Positions 28,935 through 53,672 of a stretch of DNA of 64,000 nt are shown here, one piece after another. A program made the translations under genes and the position numbers. The DNA lies in contig NZ_CP121473.1 in NCBI RefSeq assembly GCF_033954455.1, positions 4,388,501 to 4,452,500 of the forward strand. The letters run 5' to 3'. Position 1 is the first letter of the stretch; every line of letters starts with the position of its first letter. The notes beneath the pieces are model-generated. The model worked only from the letters and a program-made list of their open reading frames with translations. It did not search any database and was not told where the DNA came from. The stretch comes from Thiorhodovibrio litoralis (GTDB taxonomy: Bacteria; Pseudomonadota; Gammaproteobacteria; Chromatiales; Chromatiaceae).

Positions 28935-28950
28935 CAAGACCCACGCCCCC

Positions 28951-29874: not shown

Positions 29875-29929
29875 CAGGCCGGAATCGATCAAAACACTCC
29901 AACTAACAACCACTGAACACCGAAAAACA

Positions 29930-31174
29930 ATGCCCGAGCTCCAAACCTACGACGTCGTCGTGATCGGCGGCGGCCCTGCTGGCGCCACGGCGGCGACCGA
30001 TCTCGCCCGTCGCGGGCGTTCTGTGCTGCTGCTGGACCGTCCCGGGCGCATCAAGCCTTGCGGTGGGGCGATTCCGCCCATTGCCATCTCTGAATTCGAG
30101 ATTCCCGACGAGCAGCTGGTCGCAAAGATCAACTCCGCGCGCATGGTGGCGCCGAGCGAGCGCCACGTCGATATGCCCATCAACGGCGGCTATGTCGGCA
30201 TGGTTGACCGCGCCCCCTTCGACGAATGGCTGCGCGAGCGTGCCGCTGCTGCCGGTGCCACCCGGCGCAATGGCAGCTATCAGCGCATTGATCGCGACAG
30301 CGACGGCACGGCCATCGTCCACTTCCAGCCCGAGGAAGCAGGCAGCAAGACCGAGGCCAAACCGGCGCCCGAGCAGGTGCGCGCGCGCGCCATTATCGGT
30401 GCCGATGGAGCCATGTCGCGCGTGGCAAAGGACTGCGTACCCGGCGCCAAGGAGTTGCCGCATGTCGCGGCCTATCATGAGATCGTTCGCTCGCCGGACG
30501 CGGGCCATGCGGACTTCGACCCCAGCCGCTGCGATGTCTACTACCAGGGCAAAATCTCACCGGACTTCTACGGCTGGGTCTTTCCCCATGGCGAGACCAC
30601 CAGCGTTGGCGTCGGCACCGAGCTAAAGGGCTTTTCGCTCAAACAGGCCACCGCCGATCTGCGCAAGGCCGCCGGGCTTGAGGACTGCGAGACCCTGCGC
30701 TGCGAGGGCGCCCCCATTCCGCTGCATCCGCTGAAGAAATGGGACAATGATCGCGATCTGGTGCTGGCTGGCGACGCAGCCGGCGTGGTCGCCCCCGCCT
30801 CGGGCGAAGGCATCTACTATGCTCTGACCGGAGGGCGCCTCGCGGCCGACGCGGTCGAGCAGTTTCTGATCACCGGCGATGCCAAGGCTTTGGCCAGCGC
30901 CCGCAAGCGTTTTATGAAGGCCCACGGGCGGGTGTTCTGGATTCTCGGCATCATGCAGCGCTTCTGGTACAAGAGCGACAAGCGCCGCGAGCGCTTCGTC
31001 AGCCTGTGCGACGACCCGGACATCCAGCATCTGACCTGGGAAGCCTATATGCACAAGCGCTTGGTGCGCGCCAAACCCGCGGCGCACCTGCGTATTTTTC
31101 TTAAAGACACAGCCCATCTGCTCGGCCTGACCAAGGCATGGAAGGGCGGCGAGGACAAGGCCCCGAAGACTTGA
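29930..31174 (+). CDS. bchP: Geranylgeranyl reductase, BchP
   Basis: 414 residues: YDVVVIGGGPAGATAATDLARRGRSVLLLDRPGRIKPCGGAIPPIAI is the FAD-binding start plus the CGG motif of geranylgeranyl reductases. YYQGKISPDFYGWVFPHGETTSVGVG and LVLAGDAAGVVAPASGEGIYYALTGGRLAADAV follow. It reduces three double bonds of the geranylgeranyl tail of bacteriochlorophyll to phytyl. The bchG stop lies 55 bp upstream, and the spacer again contains CTAACAACCACTGAACACC-like short repeats. Confidence 0.95.
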   Translation: MPELQTYDVVVIGGGPAGATAATDLARRGRSVLLLDRPGRIKPCGGAIPPIAISEFEIPDEQLVAKINSARMVAPSERHVDMPINGGYVGMVDRAPFDEWLRERAAAAGATRRNGSYQRIDRDSDGTAIVHFQPEEAGSKTEAKPAPEQVRARAIIGADGAMSRVAKDCVPGAKELPHVAAYHEIVRSPDAGHADFDPSRCDVYYQGKISPDFYGWVFPHGETTSVGVGTELKGFSLKQATADLRKAAGLEDCETLRCEGAPIPLHPLKKWDNDRDLVLAGDAAGVVAPASGEGIYYALTGGRLAADAVEQFLITGDAKALASARKRFMKAHGRVFWILGIMQRFWYKSDKRRERFVSLCDDPDIQHLTWEAYMHKRLVRAKPAAHLRIFLKDTAHLLGLTKAWKGGEDKAPKT

Positions 31175-31191
31175 CAGGACCCGCCTGCCTA

Positions 31192-31345
31192 AGGCTCATA
31201 GTGAGCCCCTGCCGGGGAGGGTGAAGCTGCTGCTGTTTCACGGTCACGCTCATGGTGAGGCACCTCCCGGAGGGTAAAGCTGCTCTTTCACGTTTAGGCT
31301 GATGGTCCCGGCCACCCCGGAGGGTGTAAGCTACTGTTCCACAGC
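31192..31345. repeat. Three tandem degenerate ~52-bp units, each with a hairpin
   Basis: Units begin near 31192, 31244 and 31295. Each contains GGCTCATRGTGAG-like sequence, then a GGAGGGT box, then a potential stem of the type GTGAAGCTGCTG...TTTCAC (31221-31241 in unit 1, 31274-31291 in unit 2, 31325-31342 weaker in unit 3). They sit between bchP and the small membrane protein gene. They may be a REP-like element, an attenuator or an mRNA-stabilising structure; the function is not known. Confidence 0.6.
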
Positions 31346-31381
31346 AACCCCAGTCAGTCGCAGCACAGTCAGTCACATCAA

Positions 31382-31666
31382 ATGGAAAGCCTTTTCGCCA
31401 GCGGCCGCATCATCGACCCCATCTTGATCATGGTGTTGGTGGAAGCTGTTGTGCTGTGGCTTTTGCACCGCGCCACCGGGCGCGGGCCGGGACTCAAACC
31501 CCTGTTGCCGCTGCTCGCATCGGGTTTCCTGCTGCTGCTCGCCGTGCGCGCCGCGCTGGTGCAGGCGCCCTGGCCGCTGATCGCGCTGCCGCTCGCGGCA
31601 GCTTTGCTTACTCACATCCTTGATCTGCTCCTGCGCTGGCCGCGCAAACACCCATCCCGGCAATAA
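31382..31666 (+). CDS. Small membrane protein of unknown function
   Basis: 94 residues with about three hydrophobic segments (IIDPILIMVLVEAVVLWLLH, LLPLLASGFLLLLAVRAALV, WPLIALPLAAALLTHILDLLL) and a basic C-terminus. I do not recognise a named family with certainty. Its TAA stop overlaps the ATG of the following GGDEF-EAL gene (TAATG at 31664-31668), so the two are probably translated together, which suggests a membrane partner for that protein. The start ATG 31382 follows the three-unit repeat region. Confidence 0.65.
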   Translation: MESLFASGRIIDPILIMVLVEAVVLWLLHRATGRGPGLKPLLPLLASGFLLLLAVRAALVQAPWPLIALPLAAALLTHILDLLLRWPRKHPSRQ

Positions 31667-34290
31667 TGGCTTCTCCCCCGTCTCAGTCGCCGACGGCTTC
31701 GCATCGAGCCAACGAGCAGCGCTTCCGCACCCTGGTGGAAGTCAATCAAGTGGCCATCATGGAACTCGACACCCAGGGTCGCTTCCGCTACGCCAATCCG
31801 GCCGCCTGCCGGATGCTGGGCTATACCCACGAACGCCTCGTCCAAATGGAGGTCGCGGATCTGCTGCCGGCCGAGGAGGCCGAGCAGTTGCACCGGGATA
31901 TGGCCTACTTTGTCGCCGAGCAGCCCGAACCCTTCACCTATACCAACCACAACCGCACCGGGGACGGGCGTTGGATCGAGGTGCAGGTCGACTGGAACTA
32001 CCTGCGCGATGACAGCGGCGCGGTGATTGGTTTCGTCAGCATTTCCTCTGACATCACCGCCTTTCGACTGTCGCAGCGGTTGCTCGACGGGCGCAATGCC
32101 GTCCTAGAGCAACTCGCCCGTGGCGCGCCGCTGGAAGAAATGCTGCGCGCCATTGTCGATTACAGCCAGGACATCATGCGCGATGCCTGGATCTCCATCC
32201 ATCTGCTCGACGCCGAATGCGGCCAGTTGCATTCTGCCATCAGCAGTCGGTTGCCAAGCAGCTACCTGCAAGCTGTCGAAGGCGTGCGCATCGGCCCCAA
32301 TGTTGGTTCCTGCGGTCACGCCGCTTTCACCGGCGAACGCACCATCGCGAGCGACCTGCGCAGCGACCCGAAGTGGGACGGCTATCGCGACCTGGTCCTG
32401 CCGCTGGGATTGCTCGCCTGCTGGTCGGAACCCATCCTCGGACGCGATGGACAAGTGCTTGGCACCTTTGCCATTTACCTGCCGGACGCGCGCGCGCCCG
32501 AGCCCGCTGACCTGCAACTCATCGCATCCGCGGCTGAACTAGCGAGTATCGTGATTGAGCACCAGGAGGACGCCAACGCCCGCAAAGTTGCCGAGGAGCG
32601 CGCCCAACTGCTGCTGAATTCCACGGTCGAGGGTATCTTTGGTATCGACCTCGATGAACGCATCAGCTTTGCTAATCCGTCAACGGCGCGCCTGCTTGGT
32701 GGATCCGCCGAGGCGCTCACCACCGCTGACCTCATTGGTCGCGATCCGCATGCCCTGTTTCACTATGCCAACGCCGCTGGCGAGCCGCTGCCGCGCTCGG
32801 AATGCCGCATGCTGCGCGCGGCGCGCGAAGCTTGCCAGCAACATGTGAGTGACGAGGTGTTCTGGCGGCTGGACGGCAGCGCCTTTCCGGTCGAGTACTG
32901 GGCCATGCCCGTGTATCATGACGGGCGGGTCACCGGCGCGGTTGTCACCTTCCATGACATCAGCGAACGGCGTCGCGCCGAGCGTGAGATCGAGCATCTG
33001 GCCTTCCATGATCCCCTGACCGGCCTGCCTAACCGGGCGCTGTTTCGCGAAACCCTTAGCCACGCCCATGCCAATTTTCTGCGCCAGGGCCGTCCTTTTG
33101 CGCTGCACATGCTCGATCTTGATCACTTCAAGGATGTCAACGACACCCTTGGGCATCCAGTTGGCGATCAACTCCTGTGCGCGGTGGGTGCTCGTATTAC
33201 AGATCTGCTACGCGCCAGCGATACCCTGGCCCGTCTCGGCGGCGATGAATTCGCCCTGCTGCAGGAAAACATCCAAACCTCTGACGATGCCGCGCGACTG
33301 GCGAGCAAGATTATCGAAGCGCTGAACCAGGAATTCCATATCGATCAGCACCCGCTGCGCATCAATACCAGCATCGGCATTCTGATTGCCAGCCGCGATG
33401 ACTCTAATGTTGATGAAATGATTGGTCGCGCCGATGCCGCCCTGTACCGAGCTAAGGCCGCCGGTCGCGGCACTCTGGCCTTTTTTGAGAGCGAGTTGGC
33501 TCGCCATCTGCAACAGGAGATGGAGATTGTCAACGCACTGTCTGAAGCCTTGCAGCAAGAGCGCATCCAGGTTTATTACCAGCCCCAATTCAACCTGGCC
33601 GACGCCAGCTTGGTCGGGATAGAGGCGCTGATGCGCTGGGACCATCCGACACGCGGCATGCTGAAGCCGGCAGAGTTTTTTGCCGTGGCGGACAAACGCG
33701 GCCTGCTGCGCGATCTCGCCAATGCCGCCATGATGCAGGCATGCAAACAGGCCGGTGCCTGGCGGGATGCTGGCCTGGACTACAATCAGATTGCGGTCAA
33801 TCTGTGCGCGCGGCAACTCAACCACCCGCATTTCGTCACCGACACCAAACGCATCTTAGAGACCACCGGTGTTGCCCCCGAGAGCCTGACGCTGGAGCTG
33901 ACCGAAAGCCTGCTCAGCCAGGCCGACGATCATGCGCAACAGAAGCTGCGTGAACTCGCGGAGCTTGGCGTTCAATTCGCCGTCGATGATTTTGGCTCTG
34001 GCTTCTCCTCGCTGCGCCATTTGTCCGACTTGCCGGTCGCCAAGCTCAAGCTCGACCGCAGCCTGGTTACCAGCCTGCCTGAACAGCGCGACGCGGCAGA
34101 AATCGTCAAAGCCAGCATCGCGCTCGGTAAGGCGCTGAACTTCACCATCCTTGCCGAGGGTGTCGAAACCCCGAGCCAGGCTGAATTTCTGCACGCCCAC
34201 GGCTGCGATCAGGCGCAAGGCTTTTTCTACGCCGTTCCAGCCGCCGCCAGCACCATAGAAAAAGACTGGCTGCGCCGCCCGGCCCCTTAA
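31666..34290 (+). CDS. PAS-GAF-PAS-GGDEF-EAL cyclic-di-GMP turnover protein
   Basis: 874 residues. A PAS domain (about 15-135, FRTLVEVNQVAIMELDTQGRFRYANPAACRMLGY) and a GAF domain (about 150-300) come first. A second PAS (about 305-430) precedes GGDEF (about 440-600, with an intact active site in LGGDEFALL) and EAL (about 615-865). The EAL domain has IEALMRWDHPTRG, ELTESLL and VDDFGSGFSSLRHL, so metal-binding residues look intact. Both cyclase and phosphodiesterase activities are possible. No transmembrane segment is visible, so it is a soluble sensor. Preceded by a coupled small membrane gene and followed after 26 bp by the chemosensory operon, it may set the c-di-GMP level the downstream system acts on. 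Confidence 0.9.
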   Translation: MASPPSQSPTASHRANEQRFRTLVEVNQVAIMELDTQGRFRYANPAACRMLGYTHERLVQMEVADLLPAEEAEQLHRDMAYFVAEQPEPFTYTNHNRTGDGRWIEVQVDWNYLRDDSGAVIGFVSISSDITAFRLSQRLLDGRNAVLEQLARGAPLEEMLRAIVDYSQDIMRDAWISIHLLDAECGQLHSAISSRLPSSYLQAVEGVRIGPNVGSCGHAAFTGERTIASDLRSDPKWDGYRDLVLPLGLLACWSEPILGRDGQVLGTFAIYLPDARAPEPADLQLIASAAELASIVIEHQEDANARKVAEERAQLLLNSTVEGIFGIDLDERISFANPSTARLLGGSAEALTTADLIGRDPHALFHYANAAGEPLPRSECRMLRAAREACQQHVSDEVFWRLDGSAFPVEYWAMPVYHDGRVTGAVVTFHDISERRRAEREIEHLAFHDPLTGLPNRALFRETLSHAHANFLRQGRPFALHMLDLDHFKDVNDTLGHPVGDQLLCAVGARITDLLRASDTLARLGGDEFALLQENIQTSDDAARLASKIIEALNQEFHIDQHPLRINTSIGILIASRDDSNVDEMIGRADAALYRAKAAGRGTLAFFESELARHLQQEMEIVNALSEALQQERIQVYYQPQFNLADASLVGIEALMRWDHPTRGMLKPAEFFAVADKRGLLRDLANAAMMQACKQAGAWRDAGLDYNQIAVNLCARQLNHPHFVTDTKRILETTGVAPESLTLELTESLLSQADDHAQQKLRELAELGVQFAVDDFGSGFSSLRHLSDLPVAKLKLDRSLVTSLPEQRDAAEIVKASIALGKALNFTILAEGVETPSQAEFLHAHGCDQAQGFFYAVPAAASTIEKDWLRRPAP

Positions 34291-34316
34291 TGACCCCTCA
34301 ATGAAATAGCCCCGCG

Positions 34317-36230
34317 ATGTTCAAGAACCAAAGTCTTTCCATCAAGCGCCTGTTTCTGCTGTTGGCCATCGCTGGTACCCTGCTCGCGGTGCTGCTGCTG
34401 GCAGCCATTTGGAAAGCCAACCAGGCGCAAACCGAACTGGCGCAGGTCTATGAGCAGCGCTATCACTCTTATCTGCTCGCCGATCAGCTGCGCCAAAGCT
34501 CGGACGACCTCACCCGCATGGCCCGTACCTACGTGGTTACCGGTGATCCGGAGTTCGAGCGTCAGTACTGGGAGGTCTTGGCCATTCGCAATGGCGAGCA
34601 CCCCAGGCCCCAGCACTACGAGCGCATTTACTGGGATTTTGTCGCAGCGGGCGACCAGCAGCCGCGCCCGGATGGCGACACCATCGCCCTGCGCGAGCTG
34701 ATGCGCCGCGCCGGTTTTACCGAGGATGAGTTTGCCAAACTGGCCGAGGCACAGGCCAATTCCGATGCCCTTGTGGACACGGAAATGGTCGCCATGAATG
34801 CGATGAAAGGCCGCTATCGTGACAACAGCGGCAATTTCGCTCAGCAGGGTGAGCCTGATCCCGAGCTGGCCCGGCGCTTGATGCACGACAAGGACTATCA
34901 CGCCTTTAAGGCGCGCATCATGAAGCCGGTCGATGAGTTCTTCGTGCTGCTTGATGCGCGCACCAGCCAGGCCGTGGCCGAGGCCCAGCAACGCAGCCAA
35001 GCGGCCTATCAGCAGGTTATCGCGCTGGTCAGCCTGACTCTGTTGCTGGGCACTCTGGTGCTCTTTTTGCTCTATCGCTGGCTGCGCGGGCAACTCGGCG
35101 GAGAGCCGGCCTATGTGCGCGGCATTGTCGAGACCATTGCCGATGGCGATCTACAGGCGCCCATCAAGCGCCGTGCGCGCGACCACGACAGCCTGCTTGC
35201 GGCCATGGCAAGCATGCGCGCCAGCCTGGCCAAGATGCTCGGCGACATCGACAGCCATGCCGGACAGTTGACCGACTCGGCCGAGCGCCTGGCCGACACC
35301 GCCGGCATCATCGCCCGCTCTGGCGAAATGCGCATCGGGGCCAATCAGTCCATCGCCGCAGCCGTGGAGGAGATGTCCTCATCGGTGGCCGAAATTACCT
35401 CCACCATGGAAGAACTCTCGGCCTCTTCCACCCAGATTGCCGACCATTCCCAGGCGGTGGTGGATGTCGCCAGCCGCACTCTGGCCAGCAGCCGCGCCGG
35501 CACCCAGGCCATGCACCAACTGCTCGCGCGCATGGCGGAGATTCGCACCGACAACCAGAAGAGCCTGGATGAAATCCTGGCACTCGGCCAGCGCTCGAAA
35601 GAAATCGGCAAATTTATGGACCTGATCGACGCGGTGGCGGATCAGACCAAACTCATCGCTTTCAACGCCGCGCTTGAGGCATCCAGCGCCGGGGATGCTG
35701 GCAAGCGCTTCTCGGTGGTGGCGAGTGAAATCCGCCGCCTGGCCGACAGTGTGTCCGAGTCGACGCGCGAGATTGAAGGCAAAATGCTGGACATTCAAGA
35801 CACCATCGCCCGCCTGGTGGTGACCTCGGAAAAAAGCTCCACCACCATCGCCGCCGGTCTGGCGAGCAGCGAATCCACCGCCGCCATTCTCGATGAGCTG
35901 GAACAGGCCGCAGATCAGACCACAGGAGCGGCACAAAAGATCTCTCTTTCCACCCAGCAGCAAAAAACCGCCAGCGCCCAGGTGGTGCAGGCGCTGCATG
36001 AGATCGCCGAGGCCAGCACGCATACATCGAGCGCGGTGACCGGGATTTCGGAGATCAGCGCCACGCTTTTATCCATGGCCCAAACGCTGCGCGCGCTCTT
36101 TAAGCGCTTTAAGTTTGCGCGCGCCGAGATCCGCAGCGACGTCCTTATGGACACCGGCATGGACGCCGGCATGGACACGGGCAGCGACACTGGTATTGAC
36201 ACTGGCGGCAACAGCGGCAGCACCACCTGA
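34317..36230 (+). CDS. Methyl-accepting chemotaxis-type receptor
   Basis: 637 residues. TM1 is near residues 12-33 (LFLLLAIAGTLLAVLLLAAI), a periplasmic region of about 195 residues follows, and TM2 is near 235-255 (VIALVSLTLLLGTLVLFLLY). HAMP and a cytoplasmic signalling domain complete it. The hairpin tip reads VADQTKLIAFNAALEASSAGDAGKRFSVVASEIRRLADS, a variant close to receptors of alternative-function systems rather than flagellar ones. No C-terminal CheR-tethering pentapeptide is present; instead the tail has DTGMDAGMDTGSDTG-like repeats. It is the first receptor gene of the che cluster, with cheB starting 13 bp downstream. Confidence 0.9.
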   Translation: MFKNQSLSIKRLFLLLAIAGTLLAVLLLAAIWKANQAQTELAQVYEQRYHSYLLADQLRQSSDDLTRMARTYVVTGDPEFERQYWEVLAIRNGEHPRPQHYERIYWDFVAAGDQQPRPDGDTIALRELMRRAGFTEDEFAKLAEAQANSDALVDTEMVAMNAMKGRYRDNSGNFAQQGEPDPELARRLMHDKDYHAFKARIMKPVDEFFVLLDARTSQAVAEAQQRSQAAYQQVIALVSLTLLLGTLVLFLLYRWLRGQLGGEPAYVRGIVETIADGDLQAPIKRRARDHDSLLAAMASMRASLAKMLGDIDSHAGQLTDSAERLADTAGIIARSGEMRIGANQSIAAAVEEMSSSVAEITSTMEELSASSTQIADHSQAVVDVASRTLASSRAGTQAMHQLLARMAEIRTDNQKSLDEILALGQRSKEIGKFMDLIDAVADQTKLIAFNAALEASSAGDAGKRFSVVASEIRRLADSVSESTREIEGKMLDIQDTIARLVVTSEKSSTTIAAGLASSESTAAILDELEQAADQTTGAAQKISLSTQQQKTASAQVVQALHEIAEASTHTSSAVTGISEISATLLSMAQTLRALFKRFKFARAEIRSDVLMDTGMDAGMDTGSDTGIDTGGNSGSTT

Positions 36231-36243
36231 ACGGCTCCAGCCC

Positions 36244-37293
36244 ATGAGCATCCGGGTGCTGATCGTCGATGACAGCCCGCTTGCGCGGGGTCTGTTGCGC
36301 GCCATCCTCGAGCGCGAGCCGGATATCGAGGTAGTCGGCGAGGCCACCGACGGTTACCGTGCGGTTGATCTGGCACGTGAGCTGCGCCCGAGCCTGGTGA
36401 CCATGGATATGGAAATGCCGGGCTTGCATGGCCTGGATGCCATTGCCAAGATCATGCGCACCAAGGCGCTGCCGATTCTGGTGGTGAGCAACGTCGAGGA
36501 TGCCGCCACCGCCTGCGAGGCGCTCAATCGCGGCGCGCTCGATGTGATTGCCAAACCTGACGACAGCGAGGCCAGGGTCGCGGCCTTCATCGCCAAGGTG
36601 CGCCTGCTGGCCGGCATGGTAGTTGCCACCCGTTGGCGAGCCCCGCAAGCCCAGCGCCAAATAGCACAAGAACCCAAGGCTTCACCCACCCGGCGTCCCT
36701 CACCAGCGCCCCCTCAGGCCTCTGCCCGGTCAAGACTGGTGGCCATCGCCGCCTCAACCGGCGGCCCCCAGGCGCTGGCCACCATTCTCTCGGCGCTGCC
36801 GGCCGACTGCCCGGCGACGGTGCTCATCGCCCAGCACATCGCTGAGGGCTTCAGTGCCGGTCTGGCGCAATGGCTGTCGCTGAGTTCGCGCCTGCCGGTG
36901 CAACTGGCCAGGGACGGTGAAACGCCCCGCAGTGGTCAGGTCTATCTATCCCCGTCGGAGCACAATCTGGCCCTCAGCGCTGGCGGGCGCTTGGAGTTGC
37001 GTCCGCGCACTGCCAGCGACATCTACCACCCAAACTGCGATTTGCTGCTGTGCTCGGTGGCCGAGGTAGCCGGCCCGCGAGCAATCGGCTTGATTCTCAC
37101 CGGCATGAGCAGCGACGGCGCCCTGGGCATGGCGCATATCCGCGCCCATGGCGGCCTGACTCTGGCCCAGGACGAGGCCAGCTCGGTGGTCTATGGCATG
37201 AACCGGGTGGCGATTGAGGCTGGCGCCATCGATCGGGTTCTGCCGCTGGCCCAGCTTGGCGCCAGCATTGATCGCGCAGTGCGGGCCGCGTGA
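36244..37293 (+). CDS. cheB: Protein-glutamate methylesterase CheB
   Basis: 349 residues. The N-terminal receiver domain is SIRVLIVDDSPLARGLLRAIL, with the phospho-acceptor Asp in LVTMDMEMPGLHGLDAI. The C-terminal methylesterase has the catalytic Ser in VAIAASTGGPQAL, His in IAQHIAEGFSAGLAQWL and Asp in LTGMSSDGALGM. It removes methyl groups from, and deamidates, the receptor. ATG 36244 starts the receiver sequence. The stop codon overlaps the cheR start (TGATG at 37291-37295). Confidence 0.95.
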   Translation: MSIRVLIVDDSPLARGLLRAILEREPDIEVVGEATDGYRAVDLARELRPSLVTMDMEMPGLHGLDAIAKIMRTKALPILVVSNVEDAATACEALNRGALDVIAKPDDSEARVAAFIAKVRLLAGMVVATRWRAPQAQRQIAQEPKASPTRRPSPAPPQASARSRLVAIAASTGGPQALATILSALPADCPATVLIAQHIAEGFSAGLAQWLSLSSRLPVQLARDGETPRSGQVYLSPSEHNLALSAGGRLELRPRTASDIYHPNCDLLLCSVAEVAGPRAIGLILTGMSSDGALGMAHIRAHGGLTLAQDEASSVVYGMNRVAIEAGAIDRVLPLAQLGASIDRAVRAA

Positions 37294-38846
37294 TGAAAGC
37301 GCTTGAACTCGACGCCTTCAAAACCCTGGTGCGCGAGCACTTCGGTCTCGTCTTCGAGCAGCAGACCCAGAGCAAGCTCGCCGGCGCTCTTGCCAAACGC
37401 ATGGCCGCCTGCGAGCTACATCTGCCACGCGCCTATGCCGCGCGCCTGCGCGCTGATGCAGCTGAGCGCCAGGCGCTGGTCAATCTGCTCACGGTGAACG
37501 AGACCTATTTTTTTCGCGAGCCCGAGCAACTGCGGCTGCTGATCCAACGTCTGATACCGCGCCGACTGACTGTGCGTGCAGACGGCGCCAAGGTGCGCCT
37601 GTTGAGCGCCGGCTGCTCCTCGGGCGAGGAAGTCTATTCGCTGATCATGCTGCTGACCGAGGTCTACGGCGAGCGCACGCCCGAGTTGTTTGAGGTGATG
37701 GGTGGCGACATCGACAGTGCCACTCTGGAGAAAGCCCGCGCCGGGCGCTATGGGCGCTTTTCCTTTCGCGGTGTCAGCGCCGAGCGCCAGACGCGGTTTT
37801 TCCTGCCCAGCGGCTCTGGCTACCAGGTGCGGGACGGTATTCTCGCTCAGGCACGCTTCGTACCGCTGAATCTGAGCGCGCCGCCGGCCAGCCTGGGCCG
37901 GTTCGATTGTATTTTGTATCGCAATGTCTCCATCTACTTTGACGAGCCCACGCGCGAGCGGGTGCTGCGCAATCTGATCCGGCTGCTGAAGCCCGAGGGC
38001 TACTTGATCATCGGCAGCTCCGAGACTCTGGGCAACGACATTGGTCTGCTGGAACTGGTCCAGGAAGACGGCCTGTTTTATTTCATCAACCGCAGCTGCG
38101 GCGAGAGCGACAGGCCGGTATCCAAGAGCGCGGCTGGGGCTCTGGTCACTGACGATTTCCGACCGCCGCGCCCGCCAGACCCACCAACCCCACCAACCCC
38201 GCAACCCGCGGCACAAAGGGCCAGGCCGCTTGCCGCAGCGCCCGCGAGCCCGGCTGCTCCGGTCCAGCCCACGCCACCGACACCCGCCAAGCCAGCGCCT
38301 ATGACGGTCGGTTCCCAGCCGCCTGCCGCGCCATGGCCACTCGACCCGGTGCAGCAGTTGATTGCCGAGCAGCGCTTCGACGAAGCGCTGGCTACGGTTG
38401 GCGAGCGGCTCGTGCAGGCCCCGGCGGATGCCGATGCCCTGCTGCTCAGCGCCTATCTGCTGCTTGAGCGCCGCCAGTTCGACGCGGCCGAGGAGCAAGT
38501 CCGCCAGGTGCTCGAACAGCAGCCCTGGCTCACCGATGCCTGGCTACTGCAGGGGCTCATCAACAAATGGCGCGAGCAAGCGGACCCGGCAGTGGCGGCT
38601 TTTAAGCGCGCGATTTACATCCAGCCAGACTGCTGGCCCGCGCATTTTCATCTCGGCGATCTTTACCGCGCCCGAGGTGATGGCGCGCAGGCCGGGCGCG
38701 CCTGGTCCGCCGTTGCGCGGCTGCTGGCAGCTGAACCACCGCCGGCCAGCGGTCTGCGCCTTCGCGTTCTGGAACCGCCCGCCAAGATGGCCCGCTATCT
38801 GTGCGAGCGGCATCTGGCGCCCGAGCGGGAACCGAGGCCGAGCTAG
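37293..38846 (+). CDS. cheR: Chemotaxis methyltransferase CheR with C-terminal TPR region (WspC-like)
   Basis: 517 residues. The CheR domain (about 1-270) contains VNETYFFREPEQLRLL, VRLLSAGCSSGEEVYSLIMLL (SAM site) and FDCILYRNVSIYFDEPTRERVLRNL. An approximately 80-residue Pro/Ala-rich linker (PPRPPDPPTPPTPQP) leads to tetratricopeptide-type repeats (about 360-490: RFDEALATVGERLVQAPADADAL, QFDAAEEQVRQVLEQQPWLTDA, DPAVAAFKRAIYIQPDCWPAHFHLGDLYRARGD). CheR-TPR proteins such as WspC belong to alternative chemosensory systems. It methylates the receptor using SAM. cheA begins two bases after its stop. Confidence 0.93.
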   Translation: MKALELDAFKTLVREHFGLVFEQQTQSKLAGALAKRMAACELHLPRAYAARLRADAAERQALVNLLTVNETYFFREPEQLRLLIQRLIPRRLTVRADGAKVRLLSAGCSSGEEVYSLIMLLTEVYGERTPELFEVMGGDIDSATLEKARAGRYGRFSFRGVSAERQTRFFLPSGSGYQVRDGILAQARFVPLNLSAPPASLGRFDCILYRNVSIYFDEPTRERVLRNLIRLLKPEGYLIIGSSETLGNDIGLLELVQEDGLFYFINRSCGESDRPVSKSAAGALVTDDFRPPRPPDPPTPPTPQPAAQRARPLAAAPASPAAPVQPTPPTPAKPAPMTVGSQPPAAPWPLDPVQQLIAEQRFDEALATVGERLVQAPADADALLLSAYLLLERRQFDAAEEQVRQVLEQQPWLTDAWLLQGLINKWREQADPAVAAFKRAIYIQPDCWPAHFHLGDLYRARGDGAQAGRAWSAVARLLAAEPPPASGLRLRVLEPPAKMARYLCERHLAPEREPRPS

Positions 38847-38848
38847 CC

Positions 38849-41050
38849 ATGGCCATCGACCGGAGCAAATTTATCGGCCGCTTTGTCGAGGAAGCACGCG
38901 ACCATCTGGTGCGCCTCGACCGCGGCCTGGCGGAAATGGCCCAGGGCAGCGCGGGCGAGGGGATCACTGCCAGCGAGATCGATGCCCTGTTTCGCTCCGC
39001 GCACACCATCAAGGGCTCGGCGCGCATGCTGAGACTCTTGCCCATCTGCGACACCGCCCATGCCATCGAAGACCTGCTCGGCGCCTTCCGCAGCCGACAG
39101 GTGCAAGCGGATGCCGGGTTGAGCGCACTGCTGCAGCGCGGCGTCGATGCCATTGCCAGCGCGGTCGATCAGCTCGACCGCCAGCCCGATCCGGACGCCT
39201 TGGCGCCGGCGGATGCCGGGCTGTGCGCAGCCCTGAGTGCCGCCGCGACCCCGGGGGATGCTCCCCGACCGGCCGCTCCGGCAGCCAACCAGACGTCCGA
39301 GCGGGCCGCAACCCAAGAGGCAAAAGCAGCTTCGGCTCCGGCGTCAGCACCGACTCCGGCTCCAGCGGCCCCACCCACTTCCGGCCTGTCGGACAGCGAC
39401 ACCCTGCGCGTGCGCCTCGACCATCTCGACGGGTTGATCCGCCTGATGGGCGAGATCATCGCCCAGCACGACCGATTGCGACTGCGCCCGGATGAAGCCC
39501 GGCGCATCGCCCGGGGTGCCGAGGCCGAGATCGCGCCGGCCTGCGAGGCCTTCGCCCACAGCCTGCGCGAGGATGTGCAGGACCAGGAGGTGCTGATCCG
39601 CGAGCTGCATGACCGCGCGCTGGCGCTGCGCATGCTGCCCTTGTCGATTCTGTTCGAGCCCGCAGCGCGCAATCTGCGCCAACTTGCCCGCTCGCTCGGC
39701 AAAGAGGTGCGCTGCACCATCACGGGCGACGCCATTTCCCTCGACCGCCAGTTGATTGATGAGCTGGCCGATCCCCTGCTGCACCTGCTGCGCAATGCCG
39801 TGGACCACGGGCTCGAACCGCCGGATGAACGTCAGGCTGCCGGCAAGCCCGCCAGCGGTTCTGTGCGACTCGAAGCACGCCGGGATGGGCGCTGGGTGGA
39901 GATCACCATTCGCGACGACGGCCGCGGCATTAATGTCGCCGCGGCCCGCGACAAGGCCATTCGCAAGGGCTTGCTGAGCGCCGAGCAGGCGGGCACGGCT
40001 AGCGACAGCGAGATTGTCGATCTGATCTTCACCCCCGGCTTCTCCACCAGCGCGCTGATTACTGATATCTCCGGGCGCGGCGTGGGCATGGACGTGGTCA
40101 AGTCCATTGTGCTCGACCGCCTGCAGGGCAGTATTCAGGTCGACAACCGCCCCGGTCTGGGCGCGACCTTTCGCCTGCGCCTACCCCTGTCTCTGGCCAT
40201 CATGCGGGTGCTCTTGATCGAGGCCGGGGGCGAGACACTGGGGTTTCTTGCCCAGCATGTGGCGGAAATCCTGCGCCTTTCGCGCGACAGCCTGCTCGAG
40301 GTGGCCGAGCGGCGCGCGGTTATCGTGCGCAATGAATTCGTCCCTGTCATGCCGCTTGCCGAGTTGCTCAATCCCGCGTTTAAGGTCGCGCCCGCAACTG
40401 CAACCGCAGCGGAGGCGAGCCCCCAAGTCTTGCTGGTCATCCTGCGCATCGGCCAGGAGAAACTCGCACTTGAGGTCGATGTGCTCCGCGACGAGCGCGA
40501 TCTGGTGGTCAAGCCGGTGCCTGAACATCTGCGTCACCTGCATCTGGTCTCAGGCTTTGTCAGCAGTGGCGCGCTGGCGGTGGTCAGCGTGTTGCACGCG
40601 CCCGCAGTGCTCGATCTGGCCGCGCGCGCCCGTGGTCAGTCGGTCAGCGACGGTGCCCGGACAATGGCTACAGCAGGCGAGCGTGTCAATCGCCTGCTGG
40701 TGGTGGACGATTCCCTGAACACCCGGGAAATCGAAAAGGACGTACTCCAAGCCCATGGTTACAGCGTCACCCTGGCCGAGGACGGCATTGACGGCCTGCA
40801 CAAGGCCATGCGGGAGCAATTCGATGCCGTGTTGACCGATGTGGAAATGCCGCGCATGGATGGCTTTACCCTGACCGAGCGCCTGCGCGCGCTTGACGCC
40901 TACCAGGCGACGCCCATTGTGATCGTCACCTCGCGCGAGAAGGAAGAAGACCGCCAGCGCGGTCTGCGCGTCGGCGCCGATGCCTATATCGTGAAAGGGG
41001 ACTTCGACCAGAGCAATCTGATCGGCACCCTGCGCGCGCTGCTTGGCTGA
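38849..41050 (+). CDS. cheA: Hybrid chemotaxis kinase CheA with C-terminal receiver
   Basis: 733 residues. Hpt domain with the phospho-acceptor His in FRSAHTIKGSARML (about residue 52), then an Ala/Pro-rich linker without an evident CheY-binding P2 domain. Dimerisation and ATPase domains follow (LLHLLRNAVDHGLEPP, ITIRDDGRGINVAAARDKA, DISGRGVGMDVVKS). The CheW-like domain is about 490-600. A REC domain about 612-732 has RLLVVDDSLNTREIEKDVL and Asp in AVLTDVEMPRMDG. CheA-REC is the WspE/ChpA-like architecture, in which the receiver often acts as sink or regulator. The kinase probably phosphorylates the downstream receiver proteins, including the GGDEF protein. Confidence 0.94.
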   Translation: MAIDRSKFIGRFVEEARDHLVRLDRGLAEMAQGSAGEGITASEIDALFRSAHTIKGSARMLRLLPICDTAHAIEDLLGAFRSRQVQADAGLSALLQRGVDAIASAVDQLDRQPDPDALAPADAGLCAALSAAATPGDAPRPAAPAANQTSERAATQEAKAASAPASAPTPAPAAPPTSGLSDSDTLRVRLDHLDGLIRLMGEIIAQHDRLRLRPDEARRIARGAEAEIAPACEAFAHSLREDVQDQEVLIRELHDRALALRMLPLSILFEPAARNLRQLARSLGKEVRCTITGDAISLDRQLIDELADPLLHLLRNAVDHGLEPPDERQAAGKPASGSVRLEARRDGRWVEITIRDDGRGINVAAARDKAIRKGLLSAEQAGTASDSEIVDLIFTPGFSTSALITDISGRGVGMDVVKSIVLDRLQGSIQVDNRPGLGATFRLRLPLSLAIMRVLLIEAGGETLGFLAQHVAEILRLSRDSLLEVAERRAVIVRNEFVPVMPLAELLNPAFKVAPATATAAEASPQVLLVILRIGQEKLALEVDVLRDERDLVVKPVPEHLRHLHLVSGFVSSGALAVVSVLHAPAVLDLAARARGQSVSDGARTMATAGERVNRLLVVDDSLNTREIEKDVLQAHGYSVTLAEDGIDGLHKAMREQFDAVLTDVEMPRMDGFTLTERLRALDAYQATPIVIVTSREKEEDRQRGLRVGADAYIVKGDFDQSNLIGTLRALLG

Positions 41051-41174
41051 CAGTGACGCGCATGATCGCAACCCGCCGGCGCGCCCTGACAACTGGTCCT
41101 ACAACACCAAAGCCGGCATGGTATCTTGCACTGATCAGCCGCACTGCCGCCTGCGTGCGCAGGAGTCCCCCCAA

Positions 41175-41543
41175 ATGCACATTCTGATTGTCGATGATGA
41201 CCCGCTGGCCGCTGAACTCTCGGCCGCCATCCTCCAGGCTGCGGGCTACCAGACCCTGGTCGCCGAGCAGGCGCTGGATGCACTCGAACAGCTCGAGGCC
41301 AATCCGGACCTGGATGTGGTCGTCAGCGACATGCACATGCCGCTGATGAACGGCATTGAATTCTTCGCCGAAGTGCGCGAGCGCGGCTATCCCTGTCGCT
41401 TTATTCTGCTCACCGGCGACGCGCCTGAGGAACTGCAAACACAGCAACCGGGGCTCGATGCCTGCCTGCTGAAAGACTTCAGCCTCGAACACAGCTTGCC
41501 GCGACTCGTTGCCGAACTGACCGCCAGCCGCCACGAAGCCTGA
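41175..41543 (+). CDS. Stand-alone response receiver (CheY-like)
   Basis: 122 residues comprising a single REC domain: HILIVDDDPLAAELSAAILQAAGY, the phospho-acceptor Asp in VVVSDMHMPLMNGIEFF, Thr in ILLTGDAPEE and the conserved Lys in CLLKDFSLEH. AGGAG at 41161-41165 supports ATG 41175. It follows cheA by about 120 bp and precedes cheW, so it is a probable CheA target, but flagellar-motor binding cannot be judged. Confidence 0.88.
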   Translation: MHILIVDDDPLAAELSAAILQAAGYQTLVAEQALDALEQLEANPDLDVVVSDMHMPLMNGIEFFAEVRERGYPCRFILLTGDAPEELQTQQPGLDACLLKDFSLEHSLPRLVAELTASRHEA

Positions 41544-41551
41544 GCTTGCCC

Positions 41552-42094
41552 ATGTCTGGTCCCAGCCTCGATGACATTCTGGCCGAGCGGCACAGCAGCC
41601 TTGCCTCCGGCGCCAGTCAGGCGGGCGAGGTTGTGGATGTGGATGAGCCCGTCGTCAAGCTGGTGATCTTCACCCTGGCTGACCAGACATTCGCCTTGCC
41701 TGGTCAACAGATTCGCGAAATACTCGCCGCCCCCTGGGTCTATCAGGTGCCGGGCGCGCCTGCGGCGCTTGAGGGGGTGATCAGCGTGCGCGGTGAGATC
41801 GAATCCGTTCTCTGCCTGCGTAATCTGCTGCAACTGCCAGCAACCAACCCTGAGAAAATGGCAGTGCTCTTGACGCGCGGCGCCCGCCTGCAAACCGGCT
41901 TGCGCGTCGATGAAGTCATTGACCTATGCGACCAGCCCGAGAGCGCCCTGCAGCCGGCGCCAGACACACTGCCAGATAATCTGCGTCCGTACGTGCGCCA
42001 CCTGACCCGCCTTGGCGAGCGCGGCGTGAGCCTGCTTGATCTCGACAGCCTGCTGGCGGCCTACAGCAAGAATGTTGCCCACAAAGCCGCTTGA
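41552..42094 (+). CDS. cheW: CheW-type coupling protein
   Basis: 180 residues. A CheW domain runs from about residue 35 (LVIFTLADQTFALPGQQIREILAAPWVYQVPGAPAALEGVISVRGEIESVLCLRNLL), and the end contains RHLTRLGERGVSLLDLDSLLA. It links the receptor and CheA. ATG 41552 is chosen over TTG 41546. It is followed by a second, much more divergent CheW-like gene, matching the two coupling proteins of Wsp-type systems. Confidence 0.88.
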   Translation: MSGPSLDDILAERHSSLASGASQAGEVVDVDEPVVKLVIFTLADQTFALPGQQIREILAAPWVYQVPGAPAALEGVISVRGEIESVLCLRNLLQLPATNPEKMAVLLTRGARLQTGLRVDEVIDLCDQPESALQPAPDTLPDNLRPYVRHLTRLGERGVSLLDLDSLLAAYSKNVAHKAA

Positions 42095-42115
42095 GCAAGG
42101 CGCCGCTGCCAATCC

Positions 42116-42595
42116 ATGAGCGCCCTTGACTTGGTGCTGTGCCGGGCCGCCGGTCACTGCTTCGGCTTTGAAGCTGCCCTGGTGCGCCAGGCCCAGAACT
42201 GTGGCTCGGCTGCGGTTACAAGTCTCGAGACCTGCCTGGGCCTGCCTGAAGATGGAACACAAGACCGCCATCTGCTAAGCCTGCGCGGTTGCAATGGCGA
42301 CTGGACTGTCGATGTTGCCGGACCACTAGAATTAACCAGTCTGCCGTTCAGCCACATTCATCCACTGCCACCGCTGCTCGCCCTGCAACCGCCGCTCCCC
42401 GGCCTGCGAGCGCTCGCCCTTGTGCCGCCAGAAGAGCCAAAAGCTCCAAGAGCTCCGCAAGCGCCTGACGCGCGGCTGATTCTGCTGCTCGACCCCCGCA
42501 CTCTGGCACTGCGGGCCAGCAACAATTCGCTAACCGCAGTAGGCTACAATGATGCTCTATCTTCCGACTCTCCTGAACCGTGCCAGCGCTCTTGA
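42116..42595 (+). CDS. Divergent CheW-like protein
   Basis: 159 residues, weakly resembling a CheW domain: LVLCRAAGHCFGFEAALVRQ at the start (compare FALPGQQIREI), LLSLRGCNGDWTVDVAGPLELTSLPFSHIHPLPPLL in the middle and ARLILLLDPRTLAL near the end, where CheW proteins have their final beta strand. The similarity is marginal and rests partly on position between cheW and the GGDEF output gene. It could be the second coupling protein of the system or a degenerating copy. Confidence 0.55.
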   Translation: MSALDLVLCRAAGHCFGFEAALVRQAQNCGSAAVTSLETCLGLPEDGTQDRHLLSLRGCNGDWTVDVAGPLELTSLPFSHIHPLPPLLALQPPLPGLRALALVPPEEPKAPRAPQAPDARLILLLDPRTLALRASNNSLTAVGYNDALSSDSPEPCQRS

Positions 42596-42666
42596 TCCCA
42601 GTCCCCCGAAGAGCCAATCCGTTCGATTCATAGAAAACGCCCCCAGGCTAGCCAAAAACAACCAGA

Positions 42667-44424
42667 ATGACGGCTCAAGATCAGTCCCCCAGTGATCAGT
42701 CCCCCAGTGATCACTCCTCCGATGGTCAGTCTCTAGAAGCCATCAAGGCCCGCCTGCGCCAGAGCTTTGTCGAAGGGCTGCCAGCGCGCATCGCGCAATG
42801 TCGCGTCGATATTGCTGCCATCAATGCGCACGGCACTGCTGAACAGGATCGTCTGGCGGCGCTGAAGCGTCTGCATCTCAGCTTTCACACACTCAAGGGC
42901 TCGGGCGCCTCCCTCGGCCTCAGCACACTCGCGCAACTTGCGGAACCGGCCGAAAAGGCGGTGCAAGGGGTGCTGAAACAAACGCCAGTTAAAGAGCGGG
43001 AATCCTTGCGCAAACTGGAGCGCACCCTCACACCCCAGCTCGACGCCATCGAGCGGGCGATTCTCAGTCAGATGGCCAGGCCACCGAGTGCGCCGGATGC
43101 CGCGGACGCGAAAGCCGCATCCGTCGCCGCCCGCGCCGACCCACACCAGCGCGATCACCGCATGGTCTATCTGTGCGACGATGATCCGCATCAACTGCAG
43201 CAACTGGCCAATCAACTCGCCTGCTTTGGCTATCCGCTGAAAGCCTTCAGTCGGCTCGACGCGCTCAAGGCGGCCGTTCTCGAGCAAACGCCCGCCGCTG
43301 TGGTGATCGACATCGTCTTCCCCGAGGGCGAAAACGCCGGCCCGGAAATGCTCGCCGAGCTGCGCCCGCAGCTCAATACCCAGATACCGGCTATTTTCAT
43401 CTCCAGCCGCGATGATTTCAGCGCCCGACTGCGCAGCGTGCGGGCCGGCTCAAGCGCCTTCTGCCCCAAGCCGGTGAACATCCCGGAGATGGTCGAGTTT
43501 CTCGATCACCTGACCAACCCCGCGGCGCCCGAGCAGTTTAATGTGCTGATCGTCGATGACGAACCCGAACTGGCCCGGCTGCATGCCGCGACGCTTGAGA
43601 GCGCGGGCATGATCTGCCAGGTCGTTACGGCGCCCGAGGATGTCCTCAGCGTGCTCGAACGCTTCCGTGCCGATCTGGTGCTGATGGATCTGCACATGCC
43701 GGACTGCTCCGGCCAGGAACTCGCCAGCATGCTGCGCCAGATTCCTGGCTACGTCAGCCTGCCGATCATTTTTTTGTCATCCGAAACCAATCAGGAACGC
43801 CAGTTCCAGGCCCTGCAAGCCGGCGCCGATGGCTTTCTGGTCAAACCCATCGAACCACGCCGTCTGGTCGACGAGGTGCGGCTGCGGGCCGAGCGCATGC
43901 GCACGCTACGCTCCCTGATGGTGCGCGACAGCCTGACCGGCCTGTTCAACCACAACACCATCCTGCAATTTCTTGAACTGGCCGTCGCCAACGCCCGCCG
44001 CAACACCAGTCCGCTGTGCTTTGCCATGATCGACGTCGACCACTTCAAGCTGGTCAATGATACCCACGGTCACCCTGCCGGCGATCACGTTCTCATGGCT
44101 TTAAGTCGCACCCTGCGTCTACGCCTGCGCGACTCCGACTCCATCGGCCGCTACGGCGGCGAAGAATTCGCCGTCGTACTCAACGACACTGGACTAAAGG
44201 ACGCGACCGAACTCCTCGACGCCCTGCGCACCGACTTCTCGCGCATCCAATTCCAGGCAAACGGCCAGAAGTTCAGCTGCACCTTCAGCGCCGGCATCGC
44301 CACCTTCCCCAATTGCCCCGACCCCCGCCGACTGACCGAAACCGCCGATCACGCGCTCTACAATGCGAAACACGCCGGGCGCAACCAGGTCACCACATTA
44401 GTGTGCGATGGCCTCGAGCGCTGA
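42667..44424 (+). CDS. Hpt-REC-REC-GGDEF diguanylate cyclase, probable output of the che cluster
   Basis: 585 residues. A Ser/Asp/Gln repeat leader (SPSDQSPSDHSSDGQS) comes first, then an Hpt-like domain with LHLSFHTLKGSGASLG. REC1 (about 160-280, MVYLCDDDPHQLQQL, Asp in VVIDIVFPEG) and REC2 (about 292-410, VLIVDDEPELARL, Asp in LVLMDLHMPDCSG) follow. GGDEF is about 415-580 with GGEEF (RYGGEEFAVVLND) and a conserved IDVDHFKLVND metal site. GGEEF is catalytically competent in many cyclases. In Wsp systems the output is a single REC-GGDEF (WspR). Here an Hpt and a second receiver are added, so it may be fed by the CheA relay. Confidence 0.9.
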   Translation: MTAQDQSPSDQSPSDHSSDGQSLEAIKARLRQSFVEGLPARIAQCRVDIAAINAHGTAEQDRLAALKRLHLSFHTLKGSGASLGLSTLAQLAEPAEKAVQGVLKQTPVKERESLRKLERTLTPQLDAIERAILSQMARPPSAPDAADAKAASVAARADPHQRDHRMVYLCDDDPHQLQQLANQLACFGYPLKAFSRLDALKAAVLEQTPAAVVIDIVFPEGENAGPEMLAELRPQLNTQIPAIFISSRDDFSARLRSVRAGSSAFCPKPVNIPEMVEFLDHLTNPAAPEQFNVLIVDDEPELARLHAATLESAGMICQVVTAPEDVLSVLERFRADLVLMDLHMPDCSGQELASMLRQIPGYVSLPIIFLSSETNQERQFQALQAGADGFLVKPIEPRRLVDEVRLRAERMRTLRSLMVRDSLTGLFNHNTILQFLELAVANARRNTSPLCFAMIDVDHFKLVNDTHGHPAGDHVLMALSRTLRLRLRDSDSIGRYGGEEFAVVLNDTGLKDATELLDALRTDFSRIQFQANGQKFSCTFSAGIATFPNCPDPRRLTETADHALYNAKHAGRNQVTTLVCDGLER

Positions 44425-45174: not shown

Positions 45175-46137
45175 ATGAACCGAGCAGAGCGTATCTACCG
45201 CGTCCACGCCTTACTGCGGGACAAGCCGCGTTCCTTTGAGCAAATGCGTCGGGACCTGGAAGTATCCCGAGCCACCTTAGTGCGTGACCTCGGTTACATG
45301 AAGGACTTTATGAGGGCGCCGATCGAGTACCACCGCGCCAGCAATTGTTATCGTTACCAAGCATCGTCCAGTTTCGAGCTGCCCGGGCTCTGGCTCAATG
45401 AGAGCGAGTTGTACGCACTGCTCGCCAGCGAGCGGCTACTGGACTTGGTGCAGCCAGGTCTGCTGGCACCCTATCTCGGCCCGCTGCGCGCCCGCCTGCG
45501 CAGCCTTCTGTCCCAGAGCGGGCACACTGCCGATACCGTCAGTGAGCGCATTTTGTTGCAGCCCATCGCCGCGCGCCGGACCGAGGCGTACCGCTTTGGC
45601 GTCGTTGCCGGTGCGCTGCTTGAAGCTAAGCGGCTCGACATCCGTTATCACGCGCGCACCCAAGATCACGAAAGTCGCCGCATCGTCCATCCACAGCGGC
45701 TGGTGCGTTATCGGGACAACTGGTACTTGGTCGCCGAGTGCGAGCAAGCACAGGCACTGCGCATCTTCTCGCTCGACCGAATCACACAGGCCGAACAGTT
45801 GTCAGGCGGGGCATATCAGCTGGACGCGCAAACACTCGAGCGCTTCCTCGGCGCCAGCTTCGGCATCTTCTCCGGAACGGCGACCGCCTGGGCGGTGCTG
45901 CGCTTCAGCCCACTGGCATCCCGCTGGGTGGCTGACGAGATCTGGCACCCCGAGCAGATCGGCCAATGGCGCTCCGGACACTACGAGCTGCAGGTGCCGT
46001 ACTCCGATCCACGCGAACTCCTCATGGACATCCTCAAGTACGGGCCGGACGTGGAAGTCATCGCGCCACCCGCGTTGCGGGATGCGGTTGCCGATCGGTT
46101 GCGCCGCGCGGCAGCCACCTACGCTCCGGATGACTGA
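45175..46137 (+). CDS. WYL-domain transcriptional regulator next to the cas operon
   Basis: 320 residues. The N-terminal winged helix-turn-helix is MNRAERIYRVHALLRDKPRSFEQMRRDLEVSRATLVRDLGYMKDF. The WYL domain has the motif at NWYLVAECEQAQALRIFSLDRI, and a C-terminal WCX-like part follows (YELQVPYSDPRELLMDILKYGPDVEVIAPPALRDAV). WYL regulators sense ligands, often nucleic-acid-derived, and commonly control CRISPR and other defence genes. It ends 124 bp before cas6 on the same strand and probably regulates the cas operon. Confidence 0.88.
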   Translation: MNRAERIYRVHALLRDKPRSFEQMRRDLEVSRATLVRDLGYMKDFMRAPIEYHRASNCYRYQASSSFELPGLWLNESELYALLASERLLDLVQPGLLAPYLGPLRARLRSLLSQSGHTADTVSERILLQPIAARRTEAYRFGVVAGALLEAKRLDIRYHARTQDHESRRIVHPQRLVRYRDNWYLVAECEQAQALRIFSLDRITQAEQLSGGAYQLDAQTLERFLGASFGIFSGTATAWAVLRFSPLASRWVADEIWHPEQIGQWRSGHYELQVPYSDPRELLMDILKYGPDVEVIAPPALRDAVADRLRRAAATYAPDD

Positions 46138-46261
46138 CCGCCCTGTCTCATGAATCGCAAAAATTTTCTCACTGGCTCAGTCTCTGAGCCACTTAGTATG
46201 TTAGAACACTCTCCCAAGACGGCTCCGCGCCGGCCATCGACCCGCCAAGGAGGTATTCTCG

Positions 46262-46879: not shown

Positions 46880-46885
46880 ACGCCG

Positions 46886-50892: not shown

Positions 50893-50911
50893 CACACAAG
50901 GAGCCAATGTG

Positions 50912-51835: not shown

Positions 51836-51935
51836 GACAACCTTGACCGTGATCCGTCGCGTTGCTCTCTCCTCGGGCGTTGGCGCTGTGCTTGGCCGTT
51901 GGGGGTAACTGGATGTCTTCCGCGGGCGGCGGGCC

Positions 51936-53665: not shown

Positions 53666-53672
53666 GGCAACC

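Follow-up and report, generated by a model that had tools for sequence, protein, structure and literature searches.

A chemosensory operon in Thiorhodovibrio litoralis

A stretch of 64,000 nucleotides of the Thiorhodovibrio litoralis genome (contig NZ_CP121473.1, positions 4,388,501 to 4,452,500; hereafter the window) contains ten consecutive genes on the + strand (31382-44424), several of which overlap and none of which lies more than 124 bases from the next. Translations and Pfam matches give the order small membrane open reading frame (ORF), PAS-GAF-PAS-GGDEF-EAL protein, chemoreceptor (MCP), CheB, CheR with TPR repeats (CheR-TPR), CheA with a C-terminal receiver (CheA-REC), stand-alone or lone receiver (REC), CheW, degenerate CheW and Hpt-REC-REC-GGDEF diguanylate cyclase (Table 1); the chemosensory part proper is 34317-44424, with the small ORF and the GGDEF-EAL gene directly upstream. 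Judged by its gene content, the operon is of the kind already published as chemosensory cluster 2 of Halomonas, and the arrangement in this genus is a rearranged variant. We put at roughly 60% the probability that this operon of the cluster-2 kind runs a multistep relay from CheA through a receiver and an Hpt domain to a receiver of the cyclase.

All parts named in a preliminary description of the locus (receptor, CheB, CheR-TPR, CheA-REC, lone receiver, two CheW-type proteins and cyclase) were recovered by translation, Pfam, profile comparison or fold. The GGDEF-EAL protein and small membrane protein that it placed before the chemosensory genes are indeed upstream, but the small ORF (31382-31666) lies before the start that it gave for the system, 31666. 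CheB, CheA, the lone receiver and CheW are better started at the ATG codons at 36244, 38849, 41175 and 41552, the mechanical ORF list having begun them too early. Pfam gave no match to a P2 domain in CheA and none to the small membrane ORF, and neither Pfam nor NCBIfam matched P0009. An alignment of 30 sequences of P0009 matches that of the neighbouring CheW with a probability of 97%, and the 18 best Foldseek rows for its structural model (29 sequences, mean predicted local distance difference test score, pLDDT, 81.6) are all CheW or CheA entries among solved structures; by profile and predicted fold, P0009 is a degenerate CheW (CheW3).

Table 1. Coordinates of the operon genes and of the domains of the output cyclase, numbered within the window
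Feature	Coordinates	Strand	Remarks
Small hydrophobic membrane ORF, 94 aa	31382..31666	+	hydropathy; stop overlaps start of next gene
PAS-GAF-PAS-GGDEF-EAL protein (P0002)	31666..34290	+	GGDEF and EAL motifs intact; accessory
Chemoreceptor (MCP)	34317..36230	+	MCPsignal 4e-30
CheB	36244..37293	+	REC + CheB_methylest
CheR methyltransferase with C-terminal TPR repeats	37290..38846	+	start GTG 37290 or ATG 37293
CheA with C-terminal receiver	38849..41050	+	Hpt, H-kinase_dim, HATPase_c, CheW, Response_reg
Stand-alone receiver (CheY-like)	41175..41543	+	proposed relay intermediate or sink
CheW	41552..42094	+	Pfam
Degenerate CheW (CheW3; P0009)	42116..42595	+	profile comparison, fold
Hpt-REC-REC-GGDEF diguanylate cyclase (output)	42667..44424	+	Pfam, model
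Cyclase Hpt domain, residues 23-137, His74, Lys77	42733..43077	+	
Cyclase first receiver, Asp215	43156..43530	+	
Cyclase second receiver, Asp341	43534..43896	+	
Cyclase GGDEF domain; GGEEF 497-501, RxxD inhibitory site 488-491	43897..44397	+	

Cluster 2 and its distribution

Chemosensory cluster 2 was described in Halomonas titanicae KHS3 by Gasperotti et al. 2018 (PMC5907407), and the window operon shares with it a single receptor, CheB, CheR-TPR, a CheA-REC without P2, a CheY-like receiver, an Hpt-REC-REC-GGDEF cyclase, CheW2 and the degenerate CheW3. According to that paper, there are 83 cyclases of identical architecture, a strict gene order surrounds 16 of the 18 best matches that could be examined, the clusters occur in several proteobacterial orders including Chromatiales, and altered orders are mostly of the circular permutation type, the permuted clusters being termed cluster 2-like (PMC5907407). 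The window operon differs in that its cyclase gene is last whereas that of Halomonas precedes the CheW genes, in the sensor region of its receptor, and in being led by the small membrane ORF and the GGDEF-EAL gene. The string "Hpt-REC-REC-GGDEF" retrieved no paper from the open literature, most subscription journals lying outside the search; within the same bounds no experimental follow-up of the Halomonas cluster was recognised, although such work may exist. A later paper reportedly deals with purine binding by the Halomonas cluster-2 receptor.

Of 210 genomes of the order, 35 (counting the window's own) have a CheA match with E ≤ 1e-110; they belong without exception to the window's family and represent 13 of 61 genera. 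Across 274 genomes sampled evenly from the class, CheA matches of that quality are confined to the window's genome and one other (G232). The cluster is also present in a record of Halomonas sp. PA16-9 (NZ_CP040452.1; L287) and on a Desulfuromonadaceae contig (L098). Gene order was counted over 37 loci besides the window, namely 34 from the order-wide search plus L287, L098 and the G232 locus (L058). The order MCP-CheB-CheR-CheA-REC-cyclase-CheW-CheW3 is present in 31 of them, including three (L287, L312, L318) in which one gene is split into two ORFs in the record, while two loci of the same genus as the window share its order, MCP-CheB-CheR-CheA-REC-CheW-CheW3-cyclase. In L098 the order is a circular permutation; in L058, where neither CheB nor CheW3 was found, ORFs that read as transposase-like, with no family search, lie between the lone receiver and the cyclase. 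The remaining two run into contig ends; what is left of one agrees with the main order. Cyclic di-GMP chemosensory systems of this published kind, for which the describing authors left the function open (PMC5907407), are thus frequent in this family. Transposase-like ORFs, recognised in the same way, also lie between CheW3 and the cyclase in L289 (G460).

The output cyclase and the proposed phosphate route

The Hpt domain and second receiver that the preliminary description had noted in the cyclase, and that WspR lacks, were borne out by Pfam (Hpt 4.5e-8, two REC, GGDEF 3.6e-41) and by a structural model (mean pLDDT 86.1) consisting of a four-helix N-terminal bundle (the Hpt), two receivers and GGDEF. 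The best solved-structure matches include DgcR, PleD and WspR, in a fold comparison that barely covered the Hpt and the first receiver. PleD and DgcR have the same receiver-GGDEF fold but no Hpt, and the window cyclase keeps the phosphoacceptor Asp in both receivers; the second receiver of PleD is an adaptor. The GGEEF motif, the RxxD inhibitory site (I-site), the Hpt His and both receiver Asp residues are intact in the window cyclase, and in all 36 chemosensory cyclases these residues are invariant together with a Lys three residues after the Hpt His (H+3); two of the 38 loci, L287 (split in the record) and L313 (at a contig end), gave no whole cyclase row. Among 40 other cyclase rows, which include a REC-REC-GGDEF ORF without Hpt (the second ORF of L068) and a short ORF (L096), 36 retain the His, 31 the Asp of the first receiver and 38 that of the second. 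Judged by this pattern across relatives, the Hpt and the extra receiver are conserved and not there by chance, and because the second Asp is kept in 38 of 40 other rows and the first in 31, the alignments point to the second receiver, which adjoins the GGDEF domain, as the acceptor most important for output.

The wider set of relatives places the chemosensory cyclase among Hpt-REC-REC-GGDEF proteins many of which lie behind histidine kinases, a context that is new. Cyclase matches with E ≤ 1e-60 occur in 45 of the 274 class genomes, and the best 40 of the 54 places besides the window were taken as related cyclase loci; 39 have no CheA in the stretch taken and one (G232) does. This contrasts with the Halomonas paper, whose 18 best examined matches were nearly all chemosensory, with samples and queries that differ from ours (PMC5907407). 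In 22 of the 39 CheA-less loci the gene immediately before the cyclase encodes a lone receiver, and 19 of these have a kinase gene immediately before that; 15 of the 19 were counted by script models and four (L067, L080, L089, L097) from annotation, and Pfam confirmed them all, finding HisKA and HATPase_c in every kinase and a receiver as well in 13. In the other six kinases no receiver passed the threshold, which leaves the lone receiver as the sole one of the trio outside the cyclase in those loci. The window's own genome has such an operon (L097, G000:C1:2378600-2398100), in which a hybrid histidine kinase of 1296 aa and a lone receiver precede a second Hpt-REC-REC-GGDEF protein. These operons resemble the window's in cyclase architecture and in the adjoining lone receiver; they differ in their front end, which is a PAS/GAF HisKA kinase (hybrid in 13 of 19) and not CheA, in cyclases that fall outside the chemosensory clade, and in Hpt domains that mostly have Ala, Ser or Thr at H+3 and not Lys.

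Lys at H+3 is present in 36 of 36 chemosensory Hpt domains versus 2 of 36 others. A tree of 76 cyclases sets all 36 chemosensory members on one side of a branch, with a support of 98 by the Shimodaira-Hasegawa-like approximate likelihood ratio test (SH-aLRT). Under a midpoint root, which serves for drawing only, the reading would be that a chemosensory system recruited a kinase-type cyclase once; the unrooted tree has one change and no direction. Receptor genes without CheA lie nearby in four of the 39 CheA-less loci (L062, L075, L076, L083). In L083 (G162, 11486-15152), the relative is a REC-REC-GGDEF protein that looks to be without Hpt, and the receptor gene follows about 50 bases behind it with no CheA nearby.

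From the parts, conservation, clades and contexts observed, we infer a phosphate route and its direction, an activation step and a role for the GGDEF-EAL protein. A receptor array with CheW, degenerate CheW and CheA-REC would control cyclic di-GMP via the Hpt-REC-REC-GGDEF cyclase, with CheR-TPR and CheB adapting the receptor. Phosphate would pass from the CheA His to the Asp of a receiver (the lone receiver or CheA's own), thence to the Hpt His of the cyclase and on to an Asp of a cyclase receiver, most likely the second. The phosphorylated receiver would let GGDEF domains pair and make cyclic di-GMP, subject to product inhibition at the I-site, and in this genus the coupled membrane-anchored GGDEF-EAL protein could remove or tune the product. 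The order CheA, receiver, Hpt, receiver is favoured because the acceptors are conserved, because of the kinase-REC-cyclase operons, and because there is a precedent. The Asp of the lone receiver and that of the CheA receiver are each kept in 37 of 37 loci, and all 35 rows long enough to include the CheA Hpt His have it (L313 is cut). The precedent, the nearest experimentally tested one found, is CdgK-CdgS of Anabaena, an HK-REC-Hpt-REC(DGC) phosphorelay backed by mutants and by in vitro transfer within CdgK (PMC9927289); as described there, it likewise passes through an Hpt to a receiver-GGDEF cyclase, but its Hpt is on the hybrid kinase and not on the cyclase, and the system is not chemosensory. 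The relay through the Hpt suggested in the preliminary description therefore stands, with indirect backing from the kinase-REC-(Hpt-REC-REC-GGDEF) operons, in what would be a linear form. If it is real, it gives receptor arrays control of cyclic di-GMP with one more step of integration than Wsp has, and although the operon is ordinary in kind, the kinase-operon context gives a concrete, testable order of phosphate transfer. A fuller version, with four steps (CheA His, lone receiver Asp, Hpt His, cyclase receiver Asp) and a single origin by recruitment of a histidine-kinase-type cyclase whose Hpt then shifted to be like the CheA P1 domain (Lys at H+3), is more tentative and falls a little short of even odds; if true, cyclic di-GMP would be governed by a logic like that of Spo0F and unlike the direct transfer from WspE to WspR.

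Several observations weigh against such a relay. It rests on sequence, and phosphotransfer cannot be shown by sequence. The 36 of 36 invariance amounts to far fewer independent cases because the cyclases form one clade, mostly from one family. In profile comparisons, chemosensory lone receivers score 28 bits against those of the kinase operons, versus 36-40 bits for hybrid-kinase receivers, the CheA receiver and the second cyclase receiver, and tree tests on thinned rows could not place the lone receivers. A lone receiver and cyclase moving together as one cassette was considered and is unsupported: the joint constraint improved the likelihood by 24 over a poor free search, and the controls with flagellar CheY and with the CheA receiver by 30 and 26. 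Since there is no special profile likeness and the trees are undecided, cassette movement cannot be claimed. The lone receiver is also formally dispensable for a relay because CheA has a receiver of its own, and 17 of the 39 CheA-less loci are without one just upstream. Finally, some CheA-less cyclases may answer to a chemosensory array, since four of the 39 have receptor genes nearby.

A relay is not the only use to which these acceptors could be put. CheA might phosphorylate a cyclase receiver directly, in the manner of the known Wsp route in which WspE phosphorylates the receiver-GGDEF protein WspR (PMC10333796), with the Hpt serving as a branch, or for back-transfer, by which phosphate leaves the cyclase for the lone receiver, itself a sink or second output. 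This is the branched form raised in the preliminary description, and because every acceptor is invariant it fits as well as a chain does; we consider it unlikely nonetheless, with something like one chance in four, as in 19 of the 39 CheA-less loci the Hpt cyclase follows a kinase and a lone receiver, an arrangement typical of forward relays. It is more doubtful still that the CheA kinase domain phosphorylates the cyclase Hpt itself, the latter acting in trans as a surrogate P1, and that phosphate thereby bypasses any intermediate receiver. Against a profile of 140 CheA P1 domains, the chemosensory Hpt domains score a mean of 42.2 bits, compared with 26.0 for 19 kinase-associated Hpts and 28.8 for 17 others (36.3 versus 26.3 and 28.4 with H+3 masked), and the distribution of Lys at H+3 fits as well; yet these Hpts are one clade and so represent one event, and Lys at H+3 is also found in an ordinary relay Hpt, that of Ypd1, where K67, G68 and Q86 (H+3, H+4 and H+22) lie at the receiver interface (PMC6341664). 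Glu at H+22 was considered as a CheA-specific mark of the cyclase Hpt and rejected, because an acidic residue there is common to both groups, Glu or Asp being present in 35 of 36 chemosensory and 35 of 36 other His-bearing Hpts.

It is highly improbable, even with so many parts in common, that the operon is simply Wsp with its genes shuffled and with extra domains that do not matter. WspABCDEFR of Pseudomonas likewise comprises a receptor, two CheW proteins, CheR-TPR, CheA-REC, CheB and a receiver-coupled cyclase, with cyclic di-GMP as the likely output, but WspR is a REC-GGDEF protein without Hpt and Wsp has no lone receiver; its gene order, MCP-CheW-CheR-CheW-CheA-CheB-WspR, is seen in L238-L240 and not in the window. 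In a tree of 51 CheA kinase cores from 12 cluster-2 loci and chosen references, all 12 cluster-2 rows, Halomonas sp. PA16-9 among them, form one side of a branch (SH-aLRT 99) and the five rows with Wsp gene order form a separate branch (SH-aLRT 100). A clade of cluster-2 and Wsp CheAs is nevertheless not rejected by the approximately unbiased (AU) test (p 0.118), nor is one with the CheW-CheR-CheW-MCP-CheA-CheB group (p 0.125). The CheA phylogeny proposed in the preliminary description as a check speaks against a grouping with the two flagellar types in the tree: rows labelled F6 and F3 by gene order or taxon, the only such types covered, lie elsewhere, and a clade with them is rejected with an AU p of 4.7e-7. 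The window receptor is 26-27% identical to those of Pseudomonas Wsp operons (L239, L240), CheA 31-32% and the cyclase 34%, whereas identity to Halomonas sp. PA16-9 is 57% for the receptor (47% covered, the signalling part), 51% for CheA and 53% for the cyclase (the REC-REC-GGDEF piece). The Wsp likeness first noted thus holds in outline, for an alternative-function pathway with a diguanylate cyclase at its end and the genes in a different order; on gene order, output, receptor tip and the conserved lone receiver and Hpt, and with its own CheA clade, the operon is, as far as sequence can tell, not a member of Wsp. A Burkholderia variant of Wsp ends in the hybrid kinase WspH (PMC8552884).

The alternative cellular functions (ACF) class of chemosensory systems is associated with CheR-TPR and a multidomain response regulator (PMC3447774), and both traits are present in the window. 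Hpt proteins beside other ACF-like CheAs were examined as possible parallels to the relay and dropped: the match in L247 is weak (0.00086, below the curated cut-off) and has no phosphoacceptor His, and in L248 there is no Pfam receiver match beside the Hpt.

Features of the genus and neighbouring genes

Three genomes of the genus, the window's included, share a cyclase gene behind CheW3, a distinct receptor sensor region and the leading small ORF and GGDEF-EAL gene. The periplasmic helical sensor region of the receptor is confined to this genus among the clusters compared, and it has no second match elsewhere in the window's genome. The hairpin region aligns to WspA and relatives without gaps of the size that separates classes, yet with an insertion of about 15 residues on one side; the 40H length class is a candidate assignment, and the tip differs from that of WspA. 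Between HAMP and the signalling helices, the receptors of the genus and of Halomonas sp. PA16-9 have in common some 15 residues that are absent from the other cluster-2 receptors aligned. The C-terminal tail of the receptor in this genus is of low complexity and rich in Asp, Thr and Gly.

In a sister species (G461, L288) the small membrane ORF is fused in frame to the GGDEF-EAL protein as one 970-aa ORF, which suggests that the small protein serves the GGDEF-EAL enzyme as a membrane anchor. Among the loci compared, only this genus has the pair in the leading position. In 11 of the 31 loci of standard order, the first modelled gene after CheW3 encodes an EAL domain: it is a GGDEF-EAL protein in eight cases, and in the other three (L292, L300, L306) the ORF is EAL-only or short and has a GGDEF-EAL protein after it. 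These neighbours come from few lineages and have a generic likeness to P0002, about 35-42% over the GGDEF-EAL part; a cyclic di-GMP enzyme beside the cluster thus recurs, on a comparison that reveals no closer kinship. In a joint tree without L312, L313, L318 and L319, 27 rows of the family form a clade (support 100) to which the three genomes of the genus do not belong. There L287 and the genus are flagged as long branches meeting, and lateral gain of the window's cluster is therefore neither shown nor excluded.

Directly upstream of the operon (27498-31174) are genes for a PAS-PAS-Fis-type regulator, a UbiA prenyltransferase and an FAD/geranylgeranyl-reductase-like protein; the reductase-like gene also precedes the operon in both other genomes of the genus. 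We take the regulator to be PpsR-like and this group of genes to resemble bacteriochlorophyll genes. PpsR-type sites (TGT-N12-ACA), considered as a tie between the operon and these neighbours, number six in the window, with none in 31172-31381, as raw counts without a chance control. Elsewhere in the genome, two nearly identical further chemosensory clusters (L244 and L245, at about 2.37 and 1.69 Mb of G000:C1) encode a triple-CheW protein (CheW-CheW-CheW) and CheAs in which no receiver was found. Downstream of the operon (45175-54359), a gene for a WYL-domain regulator is followed by CRISPR genes matching Cas6, Cas3 and Cas8b (type I-B models), with a Cas5 match just under the cut-off. An IS110-family transposase gene on the - strand (51939-53063) lies inside this stretch, and the ORFs that flank it (50861-51382 and 53111-53665) read, without a family search, like pieces of one interrupted gene.

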